Below are positions 36,018 to 38,218 of a stretch of DNA of 64,000 nt, piece after piece. The stretch covers positions 1 to 64,000 of the forward strand of contig MPMR01000008.1 in assembly GCA_002238605.1 (NCBI GenBank), in the 5' to 3' direction. This stretch comes from BD2-11 clade cluster bacterium bin43 (lineage in GTDB: Bacteria; Gemmatimonadota; Gemmatimonadetes; Longimicrobiales; Gaopeijiaceae). A program made the position numbers and the translations under genes. The notes beneath the pieces were generated by a model. The model made no database searches, was not told where the DNA came from, and was given only the letters and a program-made list of their open reading frames with translations. Each line of letters starts with the position of its first letter. Position 1 is the stretch's first letter.

Positions 36018-36728
36018 ATGATTGCAGCCGTTTGGACGACATCCGCCATGCCGCCCGCCGGCGTGCCGGGGCAGGAACCGGCGCGCGACACGGTTCTGGT
36101 CATGGTCGCGCCCTCCGGGATCGCGAATGTCAGCGAATGGGGCCTCCTGGCCCTTGTGGTGCTGGCCGCCGTCGGCGCCGTGGCGCTGCTGGTGTTCCTC
36201 TGGCGCCTGGACGTGCACGGGCGCCGCCTCACCGCCATCGCGCGCCGGATGGAGAACCGGAGCCGGCCGGTGCTCGAACGGGCCGTCGTCGTCGTCGACA
36301 ATGTGGATGCCATCACCCGCTCCCTGCGCGACGAAACCCGCCATCTGACAGGTTCCGTGCGGACGCTTTCCGACCGGCTGCGGCAGGCTTCGACGCACAT
36401 GGAGACCCGCATCGACGAGTTCAACGCGTTGCTGGAAGTGGTGCAGGCCGAAGCCGAAGAGACGTTTCTGACGACGGCTGCGGCCATCCGCGGGGTGGGT
36501 GCGGGCGCGCGCGCCTTCGAGAACAGGCGGGAAGCCCAACCTTCCGCGCTCCCGCCGGACGGAGAAGAGCCGGCGGATGCGGCAGACGGCGAGCCCCGCC
36601 CCCCCCCCCTCCCCCGCCCCCGGCGGACGAAGAAGACCGGGGGGAGGCGGCAGACGGCGAGCCCCGCCCCCCCCTCGGCGCCCCCGGCCCGGACGACGGA
36701 CCCGAGCCGCCCGCGGAGGAACGGGTAG
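36018..36728 (+). CDS. Single-pass membrane coiled-coil protein with slippage-prone C-terminus
   Basis: A 236-residue protein with an N-terminal stretch, one strong membrane helix (about 42-62, LLALVVLAAVGAVALLVFLW) and a long helical region (about 65-165) with spaced charged residues, like DUF948-type membrane proteins. After residue 190 the sequence enters a C-run of 11 bases. As read, the tail is basic and Pro/Arg/Thr-rich (ending RPRRNG). With one extra C it becomes acidic (ADEEDRGEAADGEPRPP ... ADDKDR) and ends at 36748. The second reading keeps a repeated AADGEPRPP unit in register. The true C-terminus is uncertain. Function unknown; it diverges from murA. Confidence 0.75.
   Translation: MIAAVWTTSAMPPAGVPGQEPARDTVLVMVAPSGIANVSEWGLLALVVLAAVGAVALLVFLWRLDVHGRRLTAIARRMENRSRPVLERAVVVVDNVDAITRSLRDETRHLTGSVRTLSDRLRQASTHMETRIDEFNALLEVVQAEAEETFLTTAAAIRGVGAGARAFENRREAQPSALPPDGEEPADAADGEPRPPPLPRPRRTKKTGGRRQTASPAPPSAPPARTTDPSRPRRNG
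36581..36680 (+). repeat. Tandem repeat with 11-C and 8-C runs at the 3' end of the 36.0 kb gene
   Basis: The unit beginning GGCAGACGGCGAGCCCCG occurs at 36581 and again at 36649, a period of 68 bases. Each copy runs into a C tract (36599-36609, 11 C; 36667-36674, 8 C). A 68-base period is not divisible by three, so the copies are read in different frames; 69 would keep them aligned. Confidence 0.85.
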
Positions 36729-36778
36729 CGGACGACAAGGATCGGTGACCGGAAGGAGCGGGCGGGATTCCGGTCGCT

Positions 36779-38218
36779 TCAGTCGGCATCGGCGTCCAGC
36801 GCGGCGCGCAGCAGCTGGTTCACGCGACGCGGGTCCGCCTTGCGTCCGGAGGCGCGCATGACCTGGCCGATCAGAAAGCCGAGGAGGCGCGTCTCCCCTC
36901 CGCGGTAGCGGGCGACTTCCCTCTGATGCGCCGCCACCGCGTCCGCCACCCATCCCTCCAGCACCTGGTCTTCGCGAACCTGGGTGAGCCCTTCCCGTTG
37001 CACGATGGCTGCGGGCGGGTCACCGGTGCGCGCCATGCCGGCGAGAACAGTCCTGGCGGCCGGCGCGGAGAGCGTCCCGCCGTCGACCAGTGCGATCAGC
37101 TCGGCGAGACGCGCGGGCGCCAGCCCCGGAGAGGCAAGGTGGCCGATTCCTCTCTTCACGATCTTGAGCACCGGTCCCATGACCCAGTTGGACACTGTCT
37201 TGGGCTGCCGCCCGCAAGCCGTCACCGCCTCGAAGTAGTCCGCGAGCGCACGGGACGAAGTAAGCACGCCGGCGTCGTAGGCGGGCAGGTCGTACTGACG
37301 GCGGAAGCGCTCGCGCTTCGCCCGCGGCAACTCTCCCAGACCCGCCCGGAGCCTTGCGACGCGCTGGGCCGGGAGGACGAGAGGCGGCAGGTCGGGATCG
37401 GGGAAGTAGCGGTAGTCCTGGCTGTCCTCCTTGTTCCGCATGACCCGCACGTCGCCCGCCGCGGCATCCCAGAGAAGCGTCTGGCGGATCACGGCGGCTC
37501 CCCCGGCGCGAATCCGGGTCTGGCGCTCGATTTCGACGCCGAGCGCCTTTTCCACGGCCGAGAAGCTGTTGAGGTTCTTGACCTCCGTGCTCGCTTCGAG
37601 GCGCTCGCTTCCCTTTTCGCGCAACGACACGTTCGCATCCACGCGCAGGCTGCCTTCCTCCATGTTGCAATCGGAGATCTCCAGGTACTCCATCAGCAGC
37701 TTGAGGAGCTGCAGGCAGGAGCGCGCTTCCCGGGGAGAACGCAGATCGGGCTCCGAAACGATCTCGATCAGCGGTGTGCCGGTACGGTTCAGATCGACGG
37801 CGGTCGCGGACGCGAAGCGGTCGTGAAGCGACTTTCCGGCGTCTTCCTCCATGTGCACCCGCCGGATCCGCACCCTCCTGCCACTGTCCAGCTCCACGAC
37901 TCCACCGGTGGCCAGGGGGCGTTCGAACTGGGAGATCTGGTATCCCTTGGGCAGGTCGGGATAGAAGTAGTTCTTGCGGGCGAAGATCGAGGTTCGGTGG
38001 ATGGTGCAGTCCAGCGCCAGTGCGGCCCGCAGCGCAAGATCGACCGCTCCCGGGTCGAGCACGGGCAGCGCACCCGGCAACCCGAGGCAGACCGGGCACA
38101 CCGAAGTGTTGGGAGGCGCCCCGAACGCCGTCGAGTCCGCGCAGAACAGCTTGCGCCCGGTGTCGAGCTGCACGTGGACCTCGAGGCCGATCACGGCCTC
38201 CAGCGGCGAACCGTTCAT
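36779..38218 (-). CDS. gatB: Asp/Glu-tRNA amidotransferase subunit B
   Basis: A 479-residue subunit of GatCAB that recognises misacylated Glu-tRNA-Gln or Asp-tRNA-Asn and activates its carboxyl with ATP. Family signatures are visible: [67 protein letters not shown] and [13 protein letters not shown]-terminal GatB/YqeY domain (about 330-479) ends in INQ-type helical sequence. The ATG overlaps the gatA stop (ATGA); it closes the gatC-gatA-gatB run. Confidence 0.97.

Follow-up and report, generated by a model that had tools for sequence, protein, structure and literature searches.

A 68-base tandem repeat joined through an 11-C run in a Gemmatimonadota genome assembly is probably an assembly artefact

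The 11-C run and the 68-base repeat around it, near the 3' end of an open reading frame from BD2-11 clade cluster bacterium bin43, are most likely an assembly artefact, in which a spurious copy of the stretch was joined to the genuine one through poly-G. The window, meaning the whole stretch of DNA analysed here, comprises 64,000 nucleotides of contig MPMR01000008.1, from a genome assembly of 4.47 Mb in 65 contigs (GCA_002238605.1). We reach this verdict because relatives carry the stretch once, because the differences between the two copies bear the mark of lagging reads, and because both this mark and repeats of the same kind recur at other long C/G runs of the assembly. The reads were presumably produced on an Illumina instrument. 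At the GC-rich end of the gene, reads from one or both strands would have lost phase and run into poly-G, and the assembler would have overlapped this poly-G (poly-C on the + strand) with a genuine 8-base run. Traversing the stretch a second time would then have left 68 surplus bases and a broken frame. The true gene most likely contains the stretch once, ends in an acidic C-terminus as its relatives do, and has no switch.

The repeat and its two reading frames

The open reading frame and the features at its 3' end are as follows.

36018-36728, + strand: open reading frame as assembled, 236 aa, with a single hydrophobic (membrane) segment, then a region that looks helical by eye, and a basic tail
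36540-36598, + strand: copy 1, which extends to the C run; where the copies differ, orthologues agree with copy 1 on its left side but only in part further to the right
36599-36609, + strand: 11-C run, read as the join of a poly-G read tail to a true C-rich stretch; missing in the nine same-genus tails read
36610-36666, + strand: copy 2, C-rich beside the run; the lag rule described below holds at 7 of 8 mismatches to copy 1 in a local alignment
36667-36674, + strand: 8-C run, probably the true one if the artefact model is right
36676-36748, + strand: acidic C-terminus in frame 2, read as the natural one, ending DDGPEPPAEERVADDKDR; counterpart of DDGREPAGETR in relatives
36726-36728, + strand: TAG aligned with the orthologues' stop codon; out of frame in the one-copy form

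Tandem Repeats Finder reports the repeat at 36540-36674 with a period of 68, 2.0 copies, 86% matches, and a score of 207, the next score among the window's six rows being 56. The two 68-base units are identical at 58 of 68 bases, leaving 10 differing places. After the 11-C run, the longest C runs of the window have 8 bases (in the same repeat) and 7, and G runs have at most 6. Similarity of the flanks across the 11-C site scores 39, compared with a maximum of 20 at 1489 random places drawn from the window outside 36200-37000; an earlier control, with 400 random places from which the site was not excluded and with other gap costs, reached a maximum of 33. The repeat at the 11-C site exceeds chance.

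The basic tail of the open reading frame as assembled has a net charge of +5. The alternative frame gives an acidic tail with its stop at 36746-36748, and in the one-copy form this tail has a net charge of -10. These results confirm what a preliminary description of the sequence had reported: a 68-base period, C runs of 11 and 8, a basic tail that stops at 36728, a second, acidic reading that extends to 36748, and the restoration of the acidic frame by one extra C, which brings a repeated peptide into register in both copies. That description offered three explanations, namely phase variation, a recent frameshift, and sequencing error. The last is the best supported of these, with the qualification that the error is likely a spurious 68-base copy and not a missing C.

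The register of the repeated peptide is what speaks for a missing C, a reading in which the run has 12 bases in truth and an in-frame 69-base duplication is real. Adding one C and omitting 68 bases lead to the same downstream frame, however, because 68 = 69 - 1. A surplus of 68 bases therefore breaks the frame alone and a lost C is not needed. The missing C would require both a genuine duplication and an error, whereas a single surplus copy accounts for everything, and the evidence given below for an artefact and against a real duplication applies to it equally. We consider it very unlikely. As the sole cause, a missing C was rejected, a real duplication being needed as well.

On each side of the gene lies one open reading frame on the - strand; from their translations we take these neighbours to be murA and gatB. 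Matches of the window protein in the two domain libraries scanned are all below threshold, and none is to a surface, restriction, or glycosylation family. The protein appears to resemble DUF948 (PF06103) at a level below the curated score, with 14.7 and 16.3 bits (whole protein and core, respectively) against the Pfam gathering cut-off of 37.2. The same weak match occurs in all eight cores scanned (the window protein and seven orthologues), with E values of up to 0.5 and a best of 5.9e-05. On a plain reading of the sequence, the product would cross the membrane once and carry a coiled coil and a loose acidic tail.

Orthologous loci

A homologue is present in 52 of the 59 genomes searched, the window's own genome included. 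Loci were taken from the best 30 places only, and tails were read in 28 of them, leaving out the window's own genome and L011, which is masked at the tail. Ten orthologues belong to the same genus, nine with a readable tail and eight of these distinct; the loci of G003 and G010 are near-identical throughout. Over residues 1-193, the window protein is 76-80% identical to its counterparts in nine same-genus genomes. At the same level of protein identity are nine loci from named relatives, whose metagenome-assembled genomes are titled Gemmatimonadetes (5) or Gammaproteobacteria (4); most of these loci are identical in sequence to those of the same-genus genomes.

All nine same-genus tails read carry the stretch once and have a negative net charge; most of them end in DDGREPAGETR or a similar sequence. 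None of the nine contains a C or G run longer than 5, and no run longer than 7 occurs in any of the 28 orthologue tails. The net charge is negative in 27 of the 28 (from -1 to -16, the exception being L026 at +1), including 18 of the 19 tails from other genera. Tail sequence diverges widely between genera, with the sign of the charge mostly kept. Nothing like the basic tail occurs among the orthologue tails read. We rejected it as the natural form given the prevalence of negative tails, which points to the acidic frame as the natural one and answers the comparison of orthologue tails that the preliminary description had proposed: the basic tail is not common to orthologues.

The same loci bear on the proposal that gave the preliminary description its title, that slipped-strand mispairing in the 11-C run toggles the protein between a basic and an acidic tail. 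Both frames are indeed open to a nearby stop, and a run of 11 C falls within the sizes known for contingency tracts of poly-C or poly-G. Against this, the tract is found in 0 of the 28 orthologue tails and the repeat in 0 of the nine same-genus tails, and the gene, situated between the putative murA and gatB, matches no family of the surface, restriction, or glycosylation type. With no tract in the relatives read, we rejected phase variation and regard it as very improbable; marks at other runs, described in the next section, count against it as well.

In a multiple alignment with eight orthologues, the one-copy form of the window sequence needs no gap across the repeat and stays in the acidic frame as far as one base just ahead of the stop. 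It scores above the assembled form in 13 of 13 loci (several of which are one genome under two ids), and in pairwise comparison 3 of these 13 alignments of the one-copy form have a 3-base gap inside the repeat. A single copy at the window site is therefore well supported as the probable true state by these sequence comparisons. In the multiple alignment, at 36710-36728, a single extra base precedes the TAG that matches the orthologues' stop. The one-copy protein consequently runs 7 residues beyond that stop and ends at the TGA at 36746-36748. This extra base is either real divergence or another local error.

Orthologues do not side with one copy throughout. At the 10 differing places they share the base of copy 1 at 5-7 and that of copy 2 at 1-5, and in another count, with 8 differing places, they share the copy 2 base at 3-5. 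With L for a left-copy base and R for a right-copy base, the pattern at the window site is mixed, with LRRLLLRR in 3 of 7 relatives and variants in the others. Summed over seven orthologues, a mosaic of the two copies that breaks after the third differing base scores best on DNA (2830), ahead of copy 1 (2818.5), copy 2 (2789), and the assembled sequence (2628.5). On protein, copy 1 scores best (1313), ahead of the mosaic (1290), copy 2 (1188), and the assembled sequence (1054). These values are only suggestive of a true sequence that would be a mosaic of the far parts of each copy. A model in which copy 2 is simply copy 1 plus errors fits the orthologues poorly, since they share copy 2 bases at some places, and because of this poor fit we prefer a model in which reads from both strands failed.

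The main rival to an artefact is a real duplication with a frameshift. In this reading, a tandem duplication specific to the lineage, either 68 bases long or 69 bases long with the later loss of one C, arose near the 3' end, and the basic tail that replaced the acidic one was tolerated since the tail is weakly constrained. The orthologue comparison gives it some footing: bases are shared with both copies, as two independently drifting copies would have it, the tail sequence is poorly conserved between genera, and the further base beside the stop also departs from relatives. The nearly uniform negative charge of the orthologue tails stands against it, as does the position of the 11-C run, which adjoins the C-rich end of the repeat. 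Taken with the evidence from other runs given below, these observations leave a real duplication unlikely, though the most serious competitor to an artefact.

The lag mark and other long C/G runs

If a read falls out of phase, the base called may repeat the base read just before it. We formulated this as a lag rule, with the run oriented as G. At the window site, 7 of the 8 mismatches in the local alignment obey the rule, in the copy that precedes the poly-G. In ordinary divergence from relatives, 0.28-0.30 per mismatch do so, and 3 of 4691 stretches reach the value of the window. Applied alone, this one-strand rule places the errors in copy 2, over its whole extent. The two-strand version, which places errors in the left part of the right copy and in the right part of the left copy, also accounts for 7 of 8 mismatches at the window site, a value that 14 of 4690 baseline stretches reach. 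The two-strand model partly reconciles the lag mark with the orthologue bases at the window site.

Further tandem copies that look spurious and are joined by poly-C/G occur in the same assembly (G000):

L169, G000 C61:1-700
L087, G000 C37:146107
L074, G000 C7:104017
L084, G000 C28:4050

The two-strand rule accounts for 11 of 13 mismatches at L074 (baseline 0/4656), 12 of 15 at L084 (0/4644), and 9 of 10 at L087 (1/4678). At the 10-C run of L169, the lag rule explains 10 of 12 mismatches (baseline 0/3110), and at the 9-C run of L097 it explains 12 of 17 (4/3092). The mark is not clear at L073 (borderline), L076, L095, and L170.

Relatives were also compared at these sites. At the 10-C run of L169, the one-copy form gives the better score in 8 of the 8 relatives compared. 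Over roughly the first six differing places these relatives fit the left copy, and thereafter the right copy, with few exceptions; at the 13-C run of L169, they fit the left copy almost exclusively. L184-L191 entered the L169 comparison and L192-L194 were left out. One copy likewise scores better in 8 of the 8 relatives compared at L087, where the pattern is LLLLRRRRRR in six relatives and LLRLRRRRRR in two; the alignment of L115 lacks the upstream flank of L087, yet the pattern is present. For L074, seven loci were included and L132-L135 left out, and a similar left-to-right pattern is seen in 4 of the 7 relatives, those that align there. L084 is a member of a repeated gene family, and its comparison with seven loci gave no clear pattern. 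For L098, the comparison covers only L172 and L173 of ten relatives, with identical results. A left-to-right split is what would be left by two read paths that failed from opposite sides and were joined at poly-G.

The assembly contains 33 C/G runs of at least 10 bases and 56 of at least 9. By hand count, 8 of the 33 are within 200 bases of a contig end, where 0.19 would be expected. The ten other genomes of the genus have 5 to 73 runs of at least 9, so the abundance of such runs (1.1 to 18 per Mb, depending on the genome) does not follow lineage. Flanks are repeated across 18 of the 52 runs of at least 9 that were tested, which make up 12 places including a CRISPR array; the other 34 runs have no such repeat. 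Across runs of 6-8 bases none was found (0/22), nor at the random places (0/1489); the short control runs are few, and all controls are from the window, while the tested runs lie in very GC-rich stretches.

The CRISPR-like array (L083, G000 contig 27, ~1552) has a 36-base repeat, GTGAGAACCGCTTTGATGCCGGAAGGCGTTGAGCAC, with a 10-C run in spacer position, and it lacks the lag mark (4 of 32 mismatches). Elsewhere in the assembly, L076 (G000 C17 start) and L079 (G000 C20 end) are identical over the 70 bases leading up to a long C run (34 and 18 C, respectively) and differ beyond it. They are probably two ends of a single true stretch that failing reads interrupted.

Similar observations come from G007, a different genome of the genus, with 73 runs of at least 9. 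We tested 26 of these, in 20 stretches chosen by hand among the listed runs away from contig starts, while 9 more runs were too near a contig end; 8 of the 26 have a repeat across the run. Among these, the repeats in L140 (4) and L144 (1) carry the lag mark, and those in L154 (3) do not. At L137, L139, L142, L148, L152, L153, and L155 of the same genome, runs up to 36 long are found within ~60 bases of a contig end.

For a real duplication, the difficulty is that the lag mark is found at 7 of 8 mismatches, that, leaving the CRISPR array aside, 10 other long-run places have a like architecture while no control does, and that relatives show the pattern expected of an artefact at L087 and L169. 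For phase variation, it is that several long runs carry marks of read error, and that run abundance varies so widely within the genus and is raised at contig ends in the window's own assembly. Were the 11-C tract real and variable in length, it would constitute phase variation in Gemmatimonadota, with a widespread single-pass membrane protein switching C-termini, and the genome's other 32 runs of at least 10 would be candidates for contingency tracts. If it is instead an artefact, as we consider probable, a false lead is removed and others gain a test for GC-rich metagenome assemblies: where tandem copies are joined by poly-C or poly-G, the lag mark and the left/right-copy pattern should be checked before phase variation, duplication, or a pseudogene is claimed. 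All 33 runs of at least 10 in this genome would be suspect, as would findings from the assembly that rest on long C/G runs.

Comparison with known systems

Poly-C and poly-G tracts of type III methyltransferase genes are described as contingency loci (PMC3711429), and the window site resembles them in having a homopolymer tract in a coding region and alternative frames. Among the papers searched, only this survey of frame transitions was returned for phase variation at homopolymers in Gemmatimonads. Unlike contingency loci, the window site has a tract that is missing in relatives, no recognisable contingency gene class, and duplicated flanks with marks of read error. Relatives do not keep the tract (nine same-genus tails and 28 tails overall), and the two frames are not conserved alternatives, as the basic tail is without a counterpart.

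As a dephased-read artefact would have it, the wrong base is the neighbouring base in the direction of reading at the window site, L074, L084, L087, and L169, and relatives carry the locus once at the window site (13/13 loci), L087 (8/8), and L169 (8/8). The mosaic of the far part of each copy is clear at L087 and at the 10-C run of L169, partial at L074, no more than suggestive at the window site, and absent from the 13-C run of L169.

Two-colour Illumina instruments read lost signal as G, giving rise to poly-G tails. The G called on lost signal corresponds to C on the opposite strand, as at the window site, and the two may be linked. Context-specific Illumina errors, with dephasing after GGC motifs and inverted repeats, are described in PMC3622629. 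In that description they are like the differences at the window site in their GC-rich context, their onset at a particular place, and their dependence on read direction. There, the caller reads a neighbouring base, which at the window site would be the preceding one. That description concerns single-base miscalls and strand bias, whereas at the window site the error paths were apparently assembled into tandem copies joined by poly-G/poly-C.
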